A stretch of 21,680 nucleotides of DNA from a virus, in IMG/VR virus record IMGVR_UViG_3300042402_001052, positions 1 through 21,680 of that record; one strand, 5' to 3'. Positions 1 to 13,695 of the stretch are shown one piece after another. A program made the position numbers and the translations under genes. Each line of letters starts with the position of its first letter. Positions within the stretch are counted from its first letter, which is position 1. Under the pieces are notes generated by a model. That model was not told the DNA's origin. It did no database searches and was given only the letters and a program-made list of their open reading frames with translations.

Positions 1-876
1 GCTGGTGGCGCATTAGGAGAGGGAGTAAGTGTTCTTGCTAATAAGATGGGTTCAAGTAAGCTTGGTAATTATGTATCAGGTATATTTGGTGATCAGGCAG
101 ACCAAGCATTTAAGGTATTAGAAAGAGTTGGTAGATTATCTGCTCGTGGATTTGGTGAGGTTCCTCAGGAAACAGCTGAAGAGCTTGCTAACATATACAT
201 GAACTCTTCTAACTTTGAAGAGATGATGTCTAAGGCATCTGAGTCTTTTGGTTCGTTTGATAAGATACAGCAGTTTGTAATATCTTCATTTATTCTTGGT
301 TCAGCATTTGGCGCAGCTTCTACGTCATCTGCTAAGAAAGCATACGAAACTATGCCTGATGATAAAAGAAAACAAGTAGACCAAGTATTATCTCAGTTAA
401 AGTCTGACATGAATAAAGGTCAGCAGGCTGCAAATAACTATGCTGAAACAATGACTCAGCGTGAGGATGTTAAAGAAAAAATCGATAAAGATGATAAAGA
501 AAACAAGCCAGGGGTATCAGGTGAAGAGCGAGTCGGGGAAAAACCTGTCGAAGAGCAACCTGTCACTGAAGGCAGCAAAGAAACGCCTAGCCCTAGTGGA
601 GTGGTTCAAGAAGAACAAGTCCAAGTTGAAGAAGTAACACCTGAGGAAAAAATTGTTGCTGAGACAAATGTTCCTTTAGAGCCGTCTGAATCTGATATGT
701 TTAATGACCTACAATCTATAAGTGAGATTAAAAATCCTGCTGATAAGCGTAGAGCTATTGATGAATTTAATGCTAAGTATGACGGTCAGTATAAAAGAAT
801 GTCAAAAATTGATACTAACTTTGATAGTATTGTAAGGAACCTGAAAAAGAATAACTTAATTAATATAGATTGCTAA
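1..876 (+). CDS. Large virion-associated protein, C-terminal part (partial, cut by left edge)
   Basis: The reading frame is open to the first base of the window, so the ATG at 46 is probably internal and this is the 3' end of a longer gene. The visible part starts with Gly/Ala-rich, mildly hydrophobic helix-like sequence. About nt 280-325 encode a hydrophobic stretch (FVISSFILGSAFGAAS). A Glu/Pro/Val-rich low-complexity linker spans about nt 510-690, and a charged C-terminal tail follows. This composition and its place just before a 1459-residue protein in the same operon fit an internal virion or ejection protein, but no named domain is recognised. The stop is separated by 1 nt from the ferritin start, so translation is probably coupled. 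Function is inferred from context only. Confidence 0.6.
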   Translation, partial: AGGALGEGVSVLANKMGSSKLGNYVSGIFGDQADQAFKVLERVGRLSARGFGEVPQETAEELANIYMNSSNFEEMMSKASESFGSFDKIQQFVISSFILGSAFGAASTSSAKKAYETMPDDKRKQVDQVLSQLKSDMNKGQQAANNYAETMTQREDVKEKIDKDDKENKPGVSGEERVGEKPVEEQPVTEGSKETPSPSGVVQEEQVQVEEVTPEEKIVAETNVPLEPSESDMFNDLQSISEIKNPADKRRAIDEFNAKYDGQYKRMSKIDTNFDSIVRNLKKNNLINIDC

Positions 877-877
877 A

Positions 878-1345
878 ATGAAAAAGCTATTGACAAAAGA
901 AGAAGTTGAGTTAATCAACTCTTTAGGACATGAAGAACTTAAGGCAAGCCAAACATATCTTCATTTATCTAACTGTATGAAGACTATTGGTTTCTTTGGG
1001 GCTGAGAAATTCTTCATGAATGAGTCTAATAGTGAGCGTGAGCATTTTAACGGCTTAGAAGCGTTCATGAATGATATGAATGAGCAGATTGAAGTTCGCA
1101 CATTAGAGGCTATCAGCGTTGAAGCTGAGGAACTAATGGAGGCATTCGAGGTTGCTATGGAAATGGAGATGGACCTTCTTGCTAAGTATGAAGCTGCTTG
1201 GGATAAATGTAGCCCTAAAATGAAACCTCTTATCCACCACTACATTGAGAAACAAGTAGAAAGCGTTGGAGAGTACGGTGATTTAATTGCTCGTCTAAGC
1301 AGAACTAATGAACCTATTTTCATTGATCAAGAACTAGGAAAATAA
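878..1345 (+). CDS. Ferritin (non-haem, FtnA-like)
   Basis: This 155-residue protein has the four-helix ferritin pattern. By eye it aligns with bacterial FtnA (about 165 residues). E20 in the first helix matches the first ferroxidase glutamate. E53 and H56 form the ExxH pair of helix B. A Glu near 95-97 fits helix C. Y122, Q126 and E128 match the YxxxQxE pattern of helix D. The C-terminal FIDQEL (148-153) closely resembles the FIDKEL end of E. coli FtnA. Ferritins oxidise Fe(II) and store it in a 24-subunit shell, also limiting oxidative damage. The gene sits 1 nt after one virion-type gene and 1 nt before another, so it is probably expressed late. Whether it forms a shell in the cell or joins the particle cannot be told from sequence. 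Family call is confident; role in the phage is open. Confidence 0.88.
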   Translation: MKKLLTKEEVELINSLGHEELKASQTYLHLSNCMKTIGFFGAEKFFMNESNSEREHFNGLEAFMNDMNEQIEVRTLEAISVEAEELMEAFEVAMEMEMDLLAKYEAAWDKCSPKMKPLIHHYIEKQVESVGEYGDLIARLSRTNEPIFIDQELGK

Positions 1346-1346
1346 C

Positions 1347-4300
1347 ATGGCTAAAGACCCTTGTAAATACCAATTACCTGGATCAGACGTATGGATGTCT
1401 GAATTAGAATTCAAGAAAGCTTTGGTTGACGGACTGCTCGACCAATTGGTTATGGATTCAGGCGTATCTATTCCTTCGTTAAAGGGGTTTTCACCTGAGC
1501 CAAAGCGTGCTGAATCATTTAAGTTACGTGGTGCTAGAGGTGCTAAGATGACTGAAGATGCTGGCTTAAAATCAAGTGGATTTGATCCTAATGATAATTT
1601 ATTTTCTAAACCTGATTTGGCTAAAAATACCAATTTTGGATGGAGGACAATGGGTACTGATGAATTCAACTCATTGGCATCTGGAGAAAAGAAATACGAA
1701 GGAGGCGCTCCAGAAGGTGGCAATTGGATATCAGGTGTTCCTGAATCTTCTGCTAAGTTTGGTGGAGAGGGTAAAGTTATGGTTGAGTTTGGAGGCATTG
1801 ATATTAAAGGTGGAGAAAATATGTCTGCCGGATCTACTGCTGATAGAAACAACGTAACGAAAGTTTGGAAATACAATTCTGATACAAAACAATTTGAAGA
1901 AGCTCCTGAGCTATTAGATGCTATTAAAAATGGCTCTAAATTAGAAGCGCCTTCAGAAAAAACTAATGATGATAAGATTTCAGAATTACAAAACCAAATA
2001 GACGAAATCTTTGATAAAAGCATTCCTGCGCTAGAAGAAAAGCTGAAAAAGACAAAAGATGAATATGGTCTTTTTGCTGATGGATATAGCTTAGAGGCTA
2101 TAAACAAACAAAGAGAACTTTATAAATCAAATGATGTTGATATCGATGAGTTGTTAACTGATGAGCAAAAATCTATCATTGGTGAGATGCAATCTCTTCA
2201 AGATAAGTCTGATGAATTAGAAGATAGAATATCAGATTTAGATGAGGAAGAAGTTACTACTAAATCATACGAAGACCTAGCTAATAAGATTAGAAACATT
2301 AAGATTGACACTAGAGGTACGGCTATGTCCTCTTTGCCTGGATTGGTTGAAGCATGGAACTTAGCAGTTGAGGCTGCCGCTAAAGCTGTTGAGGTTGCTG
2401 GCGCTACAGCTGATGCTTTACAAAAAGGTATTGCTGCCGCAGAAAAAGCATTCAAGGAATCTGATTTCTACAAATCTCTTAAAGACAGAGATGAGAGATT
2501 GAGATACATGAATGATTTAAGAAACGGCATTCAACAGACCTTAGAAGAAAAGAAACCTACTGGAAAACAAAAGAAGGCAGGTAAGGAATTCAAGGAGAAA
2601 GTAGAAAGAGCTACAAGCGTAACTCGTGATGATAAAGTCATCTTAATGAAAGAGATGGACCTTTTAAAACGTGAATTAAGAATACGTCAGGGATCATCTA
2701 AACAAGCGGCAAAAGTACTTCAAGAAATGAAAGAAGCCGTAAAGAATTTTGTTAAAACAGCCCTTCCTAAAGAACAGTATTCTAAAACTGAGATTAATTC
2801 ATTAATGAATGCTATATACAAAGCTAAAGATGAAAAGAGTTTAGAAAAGGCTATACTTAAAGTATATGATTTAATTGATAAAAAGAACGAGCAAACAAGA
2901 AAGAAAAAAGTATCTGATATCAAGAAAAAGATTAAGGATAAAAGAACCCTATATACCAAAGTAAACGGCAAATGGAAAGGTAAAGTTTCTGTTGATTCTC
3001 AAAATGAATTCAATGAGTTTATAGGTCAATTGTCTGACTTAGATTCAATGTCAATGGAGGAGCTTGTTGAAGTTGAAGAAATTATCAATGGCATTGTCGA
3101 AAATGGTAAAGCTGACTTTAATAGACTTAAGGCTATTCAGGAGGACAGAAAGATGCGTGATGCTGCTGATATGCTAGAGGAACTAGCAGGTGAACCTGAT
3201 GCTATACTATCTGACAATGAAGCCGTAGAAAATTTCTTAGATCAAGCAGAAGGTGGATACGTGATTATTGACGGTAAAATGTACAATAAGAGTTCGTATG
3301 CTAAAAGCCCTTACAAAAACAAAGTAAATCCTGAACCTATTGATGGTCCTGTTAAAGGATACAAGGCTAAGAACTTACCTGAAATAAAAAGAATCCTTGA
3401 TCAAAAGGGGACACCTTTATCAAAGTTAAGATACAATCTTAAAAGATCTGTTGTATTAGATAATATGTATGGATACCTACAAAAAATAGGTAAAGATGCA
3501 CCTAAAATAACTGAGTTTATAAATAAAAATATCATTGAGCCCGTACAAGATTATTTTATTGACTCTCAAGTTGCATTTAAAAATAGGATGGATTCTTACA
3601 GAAAAGGTCTTAAGGATATATTTGGAAGCGAGAAAGCAGCAAGAAACAGATTAAATGAAAAATCACCTGTAAATCCACTAAGAGAAAGTAGAAAGCAAGG
3701 AGTTGATGTAAATAATTCTATGCTTGTTTCTATGTACAATGTATCTCGTACAGAAAATGGCATGGAGAGATTAGAGAAGTCAGGTGTTGATGCTCAAGAT
3801 TTAGTTGACTACATAGAGTCAAATGAAGACCTTCTTGATTATGCTAATTTCTTAGTGGACCAATATAATGAGATGAGAGCAGAATATGAGCCTACTTATA
3901 TTTCTGTTACAGGAATGCCATTCCCTGAAGGTTATTATTACCCTACTTATTCAGAGGCAAATTTTGACGATGACACATTATCTATTTCGGACATAATAGA
4001 TGATCAAGGTAATTTTGGCGCGTTAAATGCTATGGCAAATAACCTTAAGCGAAGAACTGATAAAACAGGAGAATTGAATACTTCACTTGGAGCAGAAGAG
4101 GTATTCATTGATTATGTTAAAAACATGGAAAGAGCTAAGGCTTTGATTCCTGTTGCTAGAGCTGCAAATCAATTATTTGCTCAACAAAATAGACCTTACT
4201 TAGTAGAGAAAATTAATGCTGAAGAATTAGCTGATTTACAAAAGCAATTAGCTGTTATATTTACTGGCAAAAGACCACCTAAAGTATATGGTGAACAAGC

Positions 4301-5726
4301 TACAAATGCTTTTATGAACCTTACGGTAATAGGGACATTAGGATTTAAGTTAAAATCAATACCTACTCAGTTAGCTTCATTTGTAAACTTTTGGGGTCAA
4401 GGAATTGAAGACGGTATTAACCCACTTAAAGTTATTTCATCTTTTCCATCTAATGCAGTTGAAAGGCAGTTTTTAACAGAAGTTGCATCTAGTCCATATC
4501 TAAAAGAAAGAAGACAAGGTACATCTTTGGATTTGGAAGTTAAAAGGATATTAAACACAAAAAATAAAACTGCTTTTGAAAGACAACTTAAAAAAGTATA
4601 TGAATCTGGTATGAAGCTTCCAGGTTTTGCTGATTACTTATCTAATATTTCACCATTAGGTGGAGGTGGTTCATATGCTATTGCTCAATTGAGAAATGAA
4701 CTAGCTAAAGGACTTTCATTAGAAGAAGCAAAAAGAAATGCTTTTAGAAAATATGTTAAGGCGGTAGAGGAAACTCAACAACCATCTACAGAAGACTACA
4801 CTTCATCTTTTCAAAGATCTACCTTTGGACGTATGCTTAGCACATACAAAACATCACAAATTGGTTTTGCTAGAAAAATAGTAAAAGGATTTAGAACGCT
4901 TGGTGATTCAAATGCTACAGATAAACAAAAAGTTCAGGCTTATTATGAAATAATATACTACAGTTTATTTAGTTCTGTTTTATTTAGCTTGATATCAAAT
5001 GCAGGTGGTAGAGTTTTATTTGGTCCTGAAGGAGATGATGAAGAATTCAACGAAGAAGCTAGAGTAATTTATGATTTAGTTATGGATCAAATGCAATCTG
5101 TAGCTCAAGGTTTTGGTACGCCAGGATTTGTATTGGATCAAGCTATTAATCATGCTAGACAGGATGATTGGAAAAACAATGTTCCATTAATTGATTTCTT
5201 GTTGAATATTTCTGAAGCAGGTTCAAGTGTATTTAACAGATATGTAAATGATGAGCTTTATCAGTATGAAAGTGATGGCGAAATATTTGATGCTAAAATA
5301 TCTCCTGAAGAACGATTAAGATTCCTTGAGGAAATGGGTCTTGCTGCTGAAGGCGGTGATGGATACTTAGAAAAAGTAGAGCAAATGTATCGTGATGCTT
5401 CTGTGTGGAGAAGAATGAGCGAGAAAGAAAGAAATCAATTGCTTAAAACAGCTCAAGTTAAAAACATAGTTAAACAGGCTGAAGATTTCTATGAATACTC
5501 TAAAGGAAATAAATCGTTTATGGATGCATTCATGGGATACGAAGAAGATTACTTTAAGTCAGCAAAATCTAGAAACAAAACTGACTATATATTTAAGTTC
5601 TTTGTTGGTGAGGATTACATTCCTAATAAAAAAGAAAGAAACAAATCACCTGAATATATTGGAGAAGAAATGGAGCCTAGAGAAATAAAAGAGAACGAAA
5701 TACCAGAATCGGAAATCAATAACTAG
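1347..5726 (+). CDS. Giant internal virion / ejection-type protein (1459 aa)
   Basis: The largest gene of the window encodes a multidomain protein. Residues about 97-185 hold R100, then DEF..L..G, then W127-I-S129, then a beta-rich GKVMVEF stretch. This order resembles small ADP-ribosyltransferase-like domains carried by phage polyproteins, but the likeness is weak. Residues about 206-300 and 380-530 are highly charged and predicted coiled coil. An Ala-rich amphipathic helix lies at 333-370. Residues about 985-1225 contain two hydrophobic segments (990-1012 and 1199-1225) and resemble the C-terminal region of large phage polyproteins that are packaged and injected. The C-terminus is acidic. 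It follows the ferritin gene by 1 nt, and a 52-nt spacer separates it from the next gene. A role in DNA ejection, with possible membrane insertion, is inferred from size, composition and position. Confidence 0.6.
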   Translation: MAKDPCKYQLPGSDVWMSELEFKKALVDGLLDQLVMDSGVSIPSLKGFSPEPKRAESFKLRGARGAKMTEDAGLKSSGFDPNDNLFSKPDLAKNTNFGWRTMGTDEFNSLASGEKKYEGGAPEGGNWISGVPESSAKFGGEGKVMVEFGGIDIKGGENMSAGSTADRNNVTKVWKYNSDTKQFEEAPELLDAIKNGSKLEAPSEKTNDDKISELQNQIDEIFDKSIPALEEKLKKTKDEYGLFADGYSLEAINKQRELYKSNDVDIDELLTDEQKSIIGEMQSLQDKSDELEDRISDLDEEEVTTKSYEDLANKIRNIKIDTRGTAMSSLPGLVEAWNLAVEAAAKAVEVAGATADALQKGIAAAEKAFKESDFYKSLKDRDERLRYMNDLRNGIQQTLEEKKPTGKQKKAGKEFKEKVERATSVTRDDKVILMKEMDLLKRELRIRQGSSKQAAKVLQEMKEAVKNFVKTALPKEQYSKTEINSLMNAIYKAKDEKSLEKAILKVYDLIDKKNEQTRKKKVSDIKKKIKDKRTLYTKVNGKWKGKVSVDSQNEFNEFIGQLSDLDSMSMEELVEVEEIINGIVENGKADFNRLKAIQEDRKMRDAADMLEELAGEPDAILSDNEAVENFLDQAEGGYVIIDGKMYNKSSYAKSPYKNKVNPEPIDGPVKGYKAKNLPEIKRILDQKGTPLSKLRYNLKRSVVLDNMYGYLQKIGKDAPKITEFINKNIIEPVQDYFIDSQVAFKNRMDSYRKGLKDIFGSEKAARNRLNEKSPVNPLRESRKQGVDVNNSMLVSMYNVSRTENGMERLEKSGVDAQDLVDYIESNEDLLDYANFLVDQYNEMRAEYEPTYISVTGMPFPEGYYYPTYSEANFDDDTLSISDIIDDQGNFGALNAMANNLKRRTDKTGELNTSLGAEEVFIDYVKNMERAKALIPVARAANQLFAQQNRPYLVEKINAEELADLQKQLAVIFTGKRPPKVYGEQATNAFMNLTVIGTLGFKLKSIPTQLASFVNFWGQGIEDGINPLKVISSFPSNAVERQFLTEVASSPYLKERRQGTSLDLEVKRILNTKNKTAFERQLKKVYESGMKLPGFADYLSNISPLGGGGSYAIAQLRNELAKGLSLEEAKRNAFRKYVKAVEETQQPSTEDYTSSFQRSTFGRMLSTYKTSQIGFARKIVKGFRTLGDSNATDKQKVQAYYEIIYYSLFSSVLFSLISNAGGRVLFGPEGDDEEFNEEARVIYDLVMDQMQSVAQGFGTPGFVLDQAINHARQDDWKNNVPLIDFLLNISEAGSSVFNRYVNDELYQYESDGEIFDAKISPEERLRFLEEMGLAAEGGDGYLEKVEQMYRDASVWRRMSEKERNQLLKTAQVKNIVKQAEDFYEYSKGNKSFMDAFMGYEEDYFKSAKSRNKTDYIFKFFVGEDYIPNKKERNKSPEYIGEEMEPREIKENEIPESEINN

Positions 5727-8578: not shown

Positions 8579-10741
8579 ATGGGCACTGATATTAATTTTA
8601 ATAAAAGCTTAGGTAGAACTTATGGCACGTACATAGGACTTCCTGCTTTTGACCCAGCTGCTCAAGCATACTTTACTGCAACGGGCATCACTGGAGTAAC
8701 GCAGCAAACTGCAATCAATAATCTTATAAAAGGCCTAAAATCTGATGGCATTTGGTCAAAGATGAAGGCAGTTTATCCGTTTGTTACTGACAATAGGAAC
8801 CGATTGAGTTATACGGAGGATTTCACGAATAATTTTTGGACTAAAAATGCTATTTCAATAACTGCAAATACAACGACTGCTCCTGACGGAACAACCACCG
8901 CTGATACTTTATCTGATGGATTGACAAACAATGCTCACTACATTAATACACCTGTGTCATTAGGTATTAATGGGAATAATACTTTATCAATTTACGCTAA
9001 AGCAAATACGCTCAATTTTTTATGGATTTATTTTTATAATGGAGTAGAGCCTGCTGGTCCAGCTGCTTGGTTTAATTTGTCAAATGGAACCATAGGAACT
9101 GTTTATAGTGGAATAACTGCAAACATTGAAAATGCAGGTAACGGATGGTATAGATGTAGCATAACAAGAAATTTTAATTTTACTGCTTCTTTTTCCAATT
9201 GTGGATTTGGTGTTTCGAACGCTGACAATGTAGTTTCATATCTTGGTACGAATAAATCACTTTTTGTATGGGGTCCGCAGTTAGATGCAGGCTTAACTCC
9301 TACAACCTACCAACCAATCGCAACAACACAACAAGCATTCATCGCATCACAATTCAAATTCAATCTTAAAGACCCAAGAGATTTGGACGCTGCTTTCAGA
9401 TTAGTTTTCAACGGAGGTTGGACGCATTCAAGTAATGGAGCTTTGCCTAATGGAACTAATGGTTATGCAGATACGAAGTTGATTCCAAACACTAACTTAA
9501 CTTTAAACAGTTGTAGTTTCTCCGTTTATTCGAGGAATAACTTTACACCTGCTGCCAATCAATCGTATGGTGTATACAGCAGCGGAACTGCATTGCCTTT
9601 AATAGGAGGTACGTTTTTTGTAGATAAAAGTGTAAGTGGGTTAACTTATTCATATTTACCGCCTGATGTGTTATTAAGTTCAACAGGTCAAAATTTAGCT
9701 GCTATGTTTTTGACAACAAGAACATCAGCATCTAATGCTAAATTGTTTAGAAACACAACTCAATTAGCGGCTGTAACAACTCAAGGTCAAACTTCTCAAC
9801 CAATAACTTCATTCTTATTTGGCGCATTCAGAAATCAAGGAGGTGTCCAAGATTACAATTCATTTCAATATGCATTTGCTCACATTGCAGACGGCCTAAC
9901 CGACACCGAAGCATCTAACCTATACACACGAGTACAAACGTTCAATCAAGCACTGGGCCGTCAGGTTGGTGTGCCTATCGTTTCTGATGCCGATGCTCAA
10001 GCGTTCTTGAATTCAGCTGAAATCACTGACTTAACTCAAGCCAATGCAATCAACACGCTCGTCACTGATTTAAAAGCTCAAGGCTTATGGACTAAAATGA
10101 AGGCCATCTATCCGTTCGTTGGTGGTACGGCATCAACTCACAAATGGAACTTGAAAGACCCGAGAGACCTTGACGCTGCGTATCGCTTGGTGTTTAATGG
10201 TGGGTGGACACATAGCTCAAATGGAGCAACACCGAATGGGACGAATGGGTATGCGGATACGAAGTTAGTACCTAATAGTGCATTAACTTTAAATAATGCT
10301 CATTTATCGTTTTATTCAAGAACAAATAATACAACAGGAATTGATGACTTATCAACAGTTATAGTTGGAGATACCCAAAATATGCGTGTTCTTATTAATT
10401 CAGCCGGTTCATTTATTACCGAAATAAATTCTGTAAATCAGCGTGTAACTATTGCAAATGCTAACTCGCTTGGTTTTTATCAAGTATCAAGAACAAGTGC
10501 AACTTCATTAAATATTTATAAAAATGCCATAACTTTTGGAAATAATACAAATACAAATACAGGTACACAACCAATAACATCTATGTATTTAGGTGCTGCA
10601 AATAGACTTGGGTCGGCTATTAACTATTCAAACAGAGAATGTGCTTTCGCATCACTAGGTGACGGACTTACAAACACCGAAGCCGCAGCACTTTACACAG
10701 CAGTACAAACATATCAAACAACTTTAAATCGTCAAGTATAA
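8579..10741 (+). CDS. Tail fibre-like protein with duplicated module and inserted carbohydrate-binding-like domain
   Basis: The 720 residues contain two copies of one module. Copy A is residues about 20-70 plus 262-463, and copy B is 464-514 plus 523-720. Both share a helical TQ.{2}AIN.L{2}..LK..G.W.KMKA.YPFV header, NLKDPRDLDAA, GGWTHSSNGA.PNGTNGYADTKL, and a DGLT.TEA..LYT.VQT end. Between header and body of copy A sits an extra domain (about 74-250) beginning NRLSYTEDFTNNFWTK and ending WGPQLDAG, then TTYQPIATT. This is the layout of carbohydrate-binding-like domains common in phage tail proteins. It probably binds host surface glycans. The stop overlaps the next start by 1 nt. Confidence 0.75.
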   Translation: MGTDINFNKSLGRTYGTYIGLPAFDPAAQAYFTATGITGVTQQTAINNLIKGLKSDGIWSKMKAVYPFVTDNRNRLSYTEDFTNNFWTKNAISITANTTTAPDGTTTADTLSDGLTNNAHYINTPVSLGINGNNTLSIYAKANTLNFLWIYFYNGVEPAGPAAWFNLSNGTIGTVYSGITANIENAGNGWYRCSITRNFNFTASFSNCGFGVSNADNVVSYLGTNKSLFVWGPQLDAGLTPTTYQPIATTQQAFIASQFKFNLKDPRDLDAAFRLVFNGGWTHSSNGALPNGTNGYADTKLIPNTNLTLNSCSFSVYSRNNFTPAANQSYGVYSSGTALPLIGGTFFVDKSVSGLTYSYLPPDVLLSSTGQNLAAMFLTTRTSASNAKLFRNTTQLAAVTTQGQTSQPITSFLFGAFRNQGGVQDYNSFQYAFAHIADGLTDTEASNLYTRVQTFNQALGRQVGVPIVSDADAQAFLNSAEITDLTQANAINTLVTDLKAQGLWTKMKAIYPFVGGTASTHKWNLKDPRDLDAAYRLVFNGGWTHSSNGATPNGTNGYADTKLVPNSALTLNNAHLSFYSRTNNTTGIDDLSTVIVGDTQNMRVLINSAGSFITEINSVNQRVTIANANSLGFYQVSRTSATSLNIYKNAITFGNNTNTNTGTQPITSMYLGAANRLGSAINYSNRECAFASLGDGLTNTEAAALYTAVQTYQTTLNRQV
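8636..10738 (+). repeat. Tandem module duplication inside the tail-fibre gene
   Basis: Copy A occupies 8636-8788 and 9362-9967, and copy B 9968-10738. The two are alike in protein and still visibly alike in DNA, for example around 9447-9480 and 10231-10264, where most differences are at third codon positions. Copy A is interrupted at about 8795-9328 by the carbohydrate-binding-like domain. The pattern suggests an in-gene duplication followed by insertion in one copy, or loss of the insert from the other. Confidence 0.75.
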
Positions 10742-12607: not shown

Positions 12608-12849
12608 TGTCATTCGGTCCTTTTGAAGTATTAACTCAGTATGGCGTGTTAGGATTTGCTGTCCTAGCGCTTGGTTATTTATGCTGGATGTTCCTCAATA
12701 GACTCATGAAAAGCGAGGATGATTTGAAGGCAAAGGTAAATGATCTTGAGGGAGAATACAGAGAAAAGCTTGAAGGTAAGCTAACAGAGACTACTGAGAG
12801 CTCTAAAAGCCTTAAGGAGATAGTTCTTATGTTCCTGAGTAAGAAATGA
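12607..12849 (+). CDS. Holin-like membrane protein with coiled-coil tail (long paralogue)
   Basis: This 80-residue protein repeats the membrane segment of the preceding gene (about 10-30, YGVLGFAVLALGYLCWMF). It then adds a charged helical tail, about 35-80 (SEDDLKAKVNDLEGEYREKL). Related membrane halves with and without a soluble tail recall holin/antiholin pairs, where one partner controls the other. The 4-nt ATGA overlap couples it to the next membrane protein. Assignment as a lysis-timing protein is from topology, paralogy and position. Confidence 0.55.
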   Translation: MSFGPFEVLTQYGVLGFAVLALGYLCWMFLNRLMKSEDDLKAKVNDLEGEYREKLEGKLTETTESSKSLKEIVLMFLSKK

Positions 12850-13226
12850 AAAAGAAGCTACTTATTGTTGGTGGTCTATTTATTACCCTTGTGGTAATAC
12901 AAGTATTCTCAAGCGGACACGGACACGTAGTTGTAGTTGAGGATAATATACAGCTAACCGGAGAGAATAAGAAGCTCACAACAGCAAATAAAAAATTAAC
13001 AACAAGTGTTAATAAATTAGAAGCTGAAAAGGAAGAGTTAATAGAAGACAAAGCTAGTCTTGAAAATATGGTTTCTGAGGTCATTGGTGATTTGGATAGC
13101 ACCAAGTCTGTGGTTAAAGACATCAAAAATGAATTGAAAAATGAAAAGGATATTGTTCGTAAGCAGTCTAGTGGTAAGCAGTTTGAGTTTCAGCCAATCA
13201 CGCTACCCACTTCAGACGGTAATTGA
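12846..13226 (+). CDS. i-spanin-like inner-membrane coiled-coil protein
   Basis: The 126 residues begin with a positively charged tip and one membrane segment (4-22, KLLIVGGLFITLVVIQVF). A long coiled coil follows (about 36-105, with repeats of NKKLTTANKKLTT and EAEKEELIEDK), then a short polar tail. This N-in, C-out coiled-coil form is that of inner-membrane spanins (lambda Rz). Its last 86 nt are also read in the +1 frame by the next gene, which encodes a secreted protein, echoing the Rz/Rz1 overlap. It overlaps the previous gene by 4 nt. No homologue name is recognised. Confidence 0.55.
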   Translation: MKKKLLIVGGLFITLVVIQVFSSGHGHVVVVEDNIQLTGENKKLTTANKKLTTSVNKLEAEKEELIEDKASLENMVSEVIGDLDSTKSVVKDIKNELKNEKDIVRKQSSGKQFEFQPITLPTSDGN

Positions 13227-13695
13227 TGGTGACTCTGTTGTCATCCTTACTAAGGCACAGGCTGACACGATAAATGAAATATTCGAAAATCAAAAGGCTA
13301 AGATTTTAAAATTTAAGTCCGAGGTAAAGACCAAGGATTCAATCATATCAGTTAGAGATACAGTGCTTATGTTTTACACATCTAAGTACACTGAGTATAG
13401 AACTATTATTGAAACTCAGATTGTACGTGAGGATAAGCTTGACACCATTAGAGGATGGTTGATTGACAGGGCAAAGGAGAACTCATGGCTTTACTACTCT
13501 TATTTAAACAATGAGGTAGTAGCTGTAGACCTCTCTGACTACGTTGTAAGGAAGGATGACTATACAGGTGATATAATTTTCTATAAGAGGGGAGAAGATT
13601 GCCCTAATGACGATAAACAGAAAGAACCGCCTATTGGTTGGCACACAGACATTGTAAAACCAAAAAGACCTAAATTAAATATTTTTAAATTATGA
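13141..13695 (+). CDS. Secreted coiled-coil protein overlapping i-spanin gene out of frame
   Basis: The start ATG lies inside the preceding gene in another frame (overlap 13141-13226). The start is supported by an A-rich leader and by an immediate Sec signal peptide (MKRILFVSSLVVSSLSFSQS), with a likely cut near residue 18-20. No cysteine is present there, so it is not a classic lipoprotein and differs from lambda Rz1. The mature part (about 165 residues) has a helical segment (about 38-75), a Val/Thr/Asp stretch, then tyrosine-rich sequence and a Pro/Lys-rich end. It is probably periplasmic or outer-membrane associated and may partner the i-spanin-like protein. Function is otherwise unknown. 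Its 3' end overlaps the next gene by 4 nt. Confidence 0.6.
   Translation: MKRILFVSSLVVSSLSFSQSRYPLQTVIDGDSVVILTKAQADTINEIFENQKAKILKFKSEVKTKDSIISVRDTVLMFYTSKYTEYRTIIETQIVREDKLDTIRGWLIDRAKENSWLYYSYLNNEVVAVDLSDYVVRKDDYTGDIIFYKRGEDCPNDDKQKEPPIGWHTDIVKPKRPKLNIFKL

Follow-up and report, generated by a model that had tools for sequence, protein, structure and literature searches.

What use could a phage have for a ferritin, and why does the gene stand between genes for large virion-type proteins? The locus that raises these questions lies in an IMG/VR virus record of 21,680 bases, the whole of which was analysed and is called the window here. The original prediction described a complete ferritin gene 1 nt from virion-type genes on both sides, and the ORF ends agree with this spacing: the large ORF before it stops at 876, and the one after it begins at 1347. 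The features of the locus are as follows.

1..876, + strand: C-terminal 291 aa of an upstream large, putatively cargo-type protein, ending in ...NNLINIDC and a stop (full-length relatives; hhalign to the G010 fusion)
878..1345, + strand: ferritin of 155 aa with five-helix H-type core and ATG start (Pfam, PDB sequence matches, AlphaFold2, Foldseek, relatives)
935..937, + strand: codon E20 (human H E27), by alignment; invariant 40/40
956..958, + strand: codon Y27 (human H Y34); invariant 40/40
1034..1045, + strand: codons E53-x-x-H56 (human H E62-x-x-H65); invariant 40/40
1166..1168, + strand: codon E97 (human H E107), by alignment; invariant 40/40
1253..1255, + strand: codon Q126 (human H Q141); invariant 40/40
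1347..5726, + strand: downstream large, putatively cargo-type protein of 1459 aa (second half of the 2844-aa fusion of G010, hhalign 100%)
1347..1490, + strand: N-terminal tag of the downstream gene, MAKDPCKYQLPGSDVWMSELEFKKALVDGLLD..., ~45 aa (blastp, hhalign, alignments)

Identity, active site and relatives of the ferritin

The ORF at 878-1345 is a genuine ferritin. It matches Pfam Ferritin (PF00210) far above chance, with E=3.1e-13 and 50.3 bits, twice the curated cut-off of 24.5 bits. Solved ferritins were retrieved from the PDB at E=4e-11 with the single sequence and at 4e-15 with the family profile, the top sequence matches being eukaryotic H-type ferritins. AlphaFold2, run on 24 sequences from the window and the other loci, gave a model of the window ferritin with pLDDT 95.0 and pTM 0.89, in which helices 7-37, 40-66, 86-110 and 116-141 form a four-helix bundle with a crossing BC loop, followed by a short fifth helix (146-154). 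In a Foldseek comparison with the PDB, E. coli FtnA (4ztt) and human H ferritin both aligned to this model at TM 0.90. The profile search and the structure prediction proposed with the original prediction uphold the ferritin fold. The label "FtnA-type" describes the fold and no more: by sequence the protein best matches eukaryotic H-type ferritins, and its ligands are those of the H-type core. A chance ORF or a misassembly is ruled out by the Pfam match, the repeated homologues and the dN/dS values.

We assigned the ferroxidase site by sequence alignment to H ferritins. Human H E27, Y34, E62, H65, E107 and Q141, which we take to be the core diiron site, pair with E20, Y27, E53, H56, E97 and Q126 of the phage protein. 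All six positions are unchanged in 40/40 viral homologues, down to ~45% identity, which supports an intact ferroxidase site. The ferroxidase glutamates, whose loss would have spoken against a ferritin, are in place (E20, E53 and E97, each aligned to H ferritins and invariant). Among the residues named beforehand, E20, E53, H56 and Q126 hold up; E128 does not, since this position is E in 12 and G in 17 of the 40 homologues, and Y27 and E97 had been overlooked. Variable are also the positions tied to site C of E. coli FtnA, presumably a third iron site made of a cluster of extra glutamates, in the numbering that we assume for it: S52, beside E53, is S, G, D or Q, and position 128, after Q126, is mostly G or E. 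Pairwise dN/dS values are 0.05-0.11 (Nei-Gojobori, the larger dS values being near saturation), and the ferritin is under purifying selection.

In IMG/VR we count ~43 viral loci with ferritin, the window included, and all ferritin-bearing phages are metagenomic contigs. Homologues comprise 12 sequences at 65-89% identity, 11 more at 44-51% and a further 17 (one partial), and two very divergent ferritin loci, L389 and L390, were reached via the tag of the downstream gene (Pfam Ferritin 5e-18). The carriers are the ~65-kb group to which the window belongs, ~90-kb crAss-like phages and two deeper lineages. A tblastn search with the ferritin against 50,697 phage records gave no match. Among prokaryotes, a pattern scan of 84,980 species, sensitive to close relatives only, found no relative, and a profile search of 395 Bacteroidota genomes found no close copy (best 52.7 bits); on both grounds a close host origin from Bacteroidota was rejected. 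In the tree, which had also been proposed as a check, the phage copies form their own clade apart from the sampled cellular ferritins, with support of 100/99, or 99/94 after L389 and L390 were added. A single origin of the phage ferritins, possibly with a deeper cellular root, is likely; we put it no higher because of long branches and of a narrow cellular sample, made up of Bacteroidota ferritins and two eukaryotic fragments.

The putative cargo block and the ferritin slot

The relatives of the window (G001, G004, G008, G010) measure 58-65 kb and carry genes for terminase and portal (phrog_6547/156), a ~1.5-kaa gene, two or three large genes, ferritin, a large gene and tail-type genes. In this group the N-half of the ~1.5-kaa protein resembles the crassvirus muzzle (hhalign 94.8%, E=5e-8), the portal aligns to cr10_1 at 21% over 24%, and the terminase has weak matches to T4-like and other phages only. 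In the fused protein of G010 the first half corresponds to the upstream protein (hhalign 100%), which is 1313-1655 aa long in relatives. For the downstream protein AlphaFold2 was uninformative (pLDDT 53). Its C-terminal half (window 3324-5723 compared with L001 and others) exists in two sequence types, with identities of 49-59% as against ~16%, which suggests exchange of a module within one phage group. Two further observations concern genes beyond the ferritin locus. A 720-aa tail-type protein (8579-10741) looks internally duplicated, its halves sharing stretches such as G[IL]W[ST]KMKA[VI]YPFV and having separate PHROG matches. Directly before the lysozyme gene, two overlapping ORFs (12846-13226 and 13141-13695) with hydrophobic or signal-like N-terminal stretches could encode lysis proteins.

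The ~90-kb relatives (G017, G018, G019) have a TerL with 33% identity over 96% to Cellulophaga phage phi14:2 and a virion RNA polymerase (vRNAP) with 25% identity to phi14:2 gp66 that keeps the DFDID motif. Homology of terminase and vRNAP places this ferritin-bearing group among the crAss-like phages (Crassvirales), and from this membership we infer Bacteroidota as hosts. By homology, their genes run in the order crAss001 gp44 (muzzle), gp45 (C1), N-part of gp47, ferritin, a ~3.1-kaa protein resembling phi14:2 gp66, the catalytic vRNAP, and gp49/gp65; crAss001 gp47 and gp49 are RNAP-associated. Mass spectrometry of crAss001 virions detected gp45, gp46, gp47, gp49 and gp50, which are described as cargo kept in capsid and tail and then ejected (PMC10172136); the annotations of phi14:2 gp65-gp67 likewise state detection by MS/MS. 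Judged by these homologies, the ferritin gene of the crAss-like phages sits between homologues of proven virion cargo. In the window group the flanking genes would be cargo by analogy, because beyond the tag they have no detectable similarity to crAss001 cargo. The predicted "virion-protein operon" is correct as far as presumably late virion-type genes surround the ferritin, and can be refined to a probable ejected-cargo and vRNAP block, since the crAss-like relatives have homologues of crAss001 gp44-gp49 and of phi14:2 gp65, gp66 and gp71.

The two groups are joined by the tag, which is common to the downstream protein of the window and the N-terminus of the crAss-like vRNAP (hhalign probability 92%, E=7e-7, residues 5-52 to 3-48). 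Both follow the pattern MA-(KP)-C-x-Y...W-x-S/T-E-x-x-F/L-K-x-x-L-x-x-G-L-L-D; outside the tag, no similarity between the downstream proteins of the window group and the crAss-like phages was detectable. A C-terminal Cys upstream together with an MA-C-x-Y start downstream is found in 37/39 loci. In the two exceptions (L010, L011) the flanking cargo genes are fused, giving the 2844 aa of G010, and the ferritin has moved to the front, directly before the fusion. The same slot is seen in four lineages: the window group, the ~90-kb crAss-like phages, and G447 and G449, further deep lineages with the same arrangement and a terminase of ~21-22% identity over part of its length. In G449 the cargo block, ferritin included, lies on the strand opposite to the muzzle, portal-position and terminase genes.

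The slot is also found empty. Among 32 loci found in a survey with the tag, ferritin stands directly upstream in 25 (at 5-22 nt) and is absent in seven, in which a constant 32-nt spacer separates the two genes; these proportions are biased to ferritin carriers, because 8/10 query rows came from ferritin-bearing phages and the slot survey began mainly from such sequences. In G434 and G436, two of these seven, the major capsid protein shares ~90% identity with that of carriers, so ferritin is an accessory gene gained or lost at one exact place. Moreover, G426, a more distant relative of the window group, has an intact fused cargo gene of 2805 aa and no ferritin. Ferritin is thus not universal in these groups. 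The idea that the tag is a ferritin-docking peptide is weakened, because ferritin-less relatives carry the same tag.

Cys residues at the touching ends of consecutive cargo proteins (window 871-873 and 1362-1364; also L067 and L068), C-terminal in one and N-terminal in the next, are an observation of their own. Besides the 37/39 ferritin loci they occur in ferritin-less crAss-like slots, in phi14:2 (gp67 ...NTIC; gp66 MACK... ...KQECK; gp65 MSCK) and in crAss001 (gp47 ...LRCNS; gp49 MAKKC), and the pair is absent where the two genes are fused. Overlap with the start codon (A-TGT) accounts for just part of the cases. One way to read this is that disulfides join ejected cargo proteins end to end. 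In the ferritin-less slots L365, L367, L377 and L383, the 32-nt spacer holds an 11-codon frame, ML[IV]KI..FDK[IF] and a stop, which overlaps the upstream Cys codon and may represent either a scar or a mini-cistron that serves coupling.

Possible roles of the ferritin

We favour the reading of a catalytically intact, late-made H-type ferritin that belongs, in a fixed slot and as a dispensable member, to the ejected-cargo and vRNAP block of crAss-like and related phages, and that is somewhat more probably packaged than left behind; as a whole we give it an even chance. Homologues suggest that the neighbours are virion cargo and that the operon is late, with ferritin expressed together with the cargo genes. 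Such co-expression would be helped by the close spacing between ferritin and the upstream gene (-10 to 12 nt, overlaps included), and translation may be coupled to that of the giant cargo proteins. The protein would oxidise Fe(II) at its diiron site and hold ferric iron. Packed in the capsid beside the polymerase cargo, it would tie up iron in the particle or let the particle carry it. Seven tag loci lack ferritin, and therefore the cargo system does not need it.

Cage assembly, iron oxidation and packaging are what we infer beyond this. Packaging is favoured just by genomic position, and we consider it about evenly balanced. For it speaks that ferritin stays in the cargo block despite the strand switch in G449 and the gene fusion in L010/L011; against it, recombination at the conserved flanking ends may hold the gene in its slot without a virion role. 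Assembled ferritin is a 24-subunit cage of ~12 nm that oxidises Fe(II) and holds a mineral core. This cage is too wide for a tail such as that of crAss001, with constrictions of <50 Å (PMC10172136), and only subunits that are unassembled or unfolded could be ejected. If ferritin is packaged, the capsid could still hold the cage, or the subunits could leave singly. The fuller claim, that crass-type phages pack a working ferritin beside the vRNAP and that the particle brings into the host, or takes out of it, an enzyme that handles iron and possibly iron itself, seems to us a little less than evenly probable.

The chief rival is an iron or oxidative-stress protein of the infected cell. Here ferritin would be a late auxiliary gene product confined to the cytoplasm, the cage would store oxidised Fe(II) and limit Fenton damage during genome packaging, and its place in the operon would reflect timing. 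The intact H-type site and a cage that exceeds the tail channel suit this well, the recombination at conserved flanks could explain why the slot persists, and the Dps and Mn-catalase genes of gut phages are read in this way (PMC8008677). It accounts less easily for a ferritin that is always in the cargo block and never elsewhere in the late region, even with strand change or fusion, and a non-systematic look at the window revealed no further gene for iron or oxidative stress. We regard it as a serious possibility, with somewhat more than a third of our belief. The idea that ferritin supplies a class I ribonucleotide reductase encoded by the phage was rejected, as 19 records, several of them fragments, gave no PF00268 match.

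Improbable, in our estimate, is a structural or assembly protein built on the ferritin fold, for instance a docking body for cargo proteins, with incidental iron chemistry. The fixed slot between two cargo genes, the conserved end motifs common to the flanking genes and a C-terminus shorter than in Bacteroidota ferritins would fit such a protein, but a purely structural role requires none of the six invariant diiron positions, and close relatives assemble without ferritin. A recent chance pickup of a host gene, or a chimeric contig, would agree with sightings just on metagenomic contigs and in 0 of 50,697 phage records, but is refuted by the recurrence of the same arrangement at ~43 loci from many samples and is further opposed by the single clade on long branches, the missing close copy in both cellular searches and the low dN/dS, so we give it almost no weight.

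The "Ferrojan horse" hypothesis, in which phage particles carry iron, has mostly been discussed for tail proteins. Packaged ferritin, if true, would be a definite molecular candidate to explain iron in phage particles, and a specific gene with an intact predicted site and natural ferritin-less relatives offers a way to test iron in them. The find also indicates that the ejected-cargo block of crassvirus-like phages takes in enzymes besides the RNA polymerase in several deep lineages, a point relevant to what such phages deliver at the start of infection.

Comparison with known ferritins and phages

Several relatives of classical ferritins were considered and ruled out. Dps is a four-helix protein that lacks the fifth, C-terminal helix and has its diiron site between subunits; the phage protein has helix 146-154 and the full intra-bundle H-type set, and its Pfam and PDB matches are ferritins. 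In bacterioferritin the haem ligand is the Met directly after the site glutamate of helix B; at position 54 the window ferritin has R, and the aligned homologues have R, K, L, N or I. Encapsulated ferritins are short two-helix proteins of ~100 aa in encapsulin operons; the phage protein is a complete bundle of 155 aa, and neither the window nor the examined phage neighbours have an annotated encapsulin.

The earlier view of ferritin as a rare cargo for phages needs qualifying. In PMC8008677, Dps and Mn-catalase, both of the ferritin superfamily, are reported from gut phages ("Gratiaviridae" and others). They resemble the present case in superfamily, in Bacteroidota-type phages and in a plausible oxidative-stress role; they differ in being of the Dps and Mn-catalase families and not five-helix ferritins and, as far as that text goes, in not being placed in an ejected-cargo block (PMC8008677). 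BFVD also lists ferritin-annotated proteins of an uncultured marine phage (A0A8D9C9X5) and of Siphoviridae sp. ctrzs15 (A0A8S5Q7U4), which share the fold with the window ferritin (TM 0.84-0.87) at just 16-24% identity. Ferritin-superfamily genes in phages, including other phage ferritins and Dps, are thus already known. No report of a crassvirus ferritin was found in the literature searched (subscription papers and preprints lay outside the search), and a five-helix ferritin fixed in the vRNAP cargo block of several lineages looks undescribed so far.

With the crassvirus cargo block (crAss001 gp44-gp50, phi14:2 gp65-gp71) the ferritin-bearing crAss-like phages have the order muzzle, C1, gp47-like, vRNAP and gp49-like protein in common. 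Unlike them, crAss001 and phi14:2 are without ferritin (no match in the phage collection), and the window group is just remotely related to these crassviruses. Classical non-haem ferritins such as E. coli FtnA and human H agree with the phage protein in their five-helix fold (TM 0.90) and in the residues of the core site, E/Y/E-x-x-H/E/Q. Compared with Bacteroidota ferritins, the phage protein is ~5 residues shorter in the loop that precedes the fifth helix; compared with eukaryotic ones, it is ~4 residues shorter in the C helix region. What sets the phage copy apart from the classical proteins is its length of 155 aa, its separate clade in the tree and the place of its gene in a phage cargo block.
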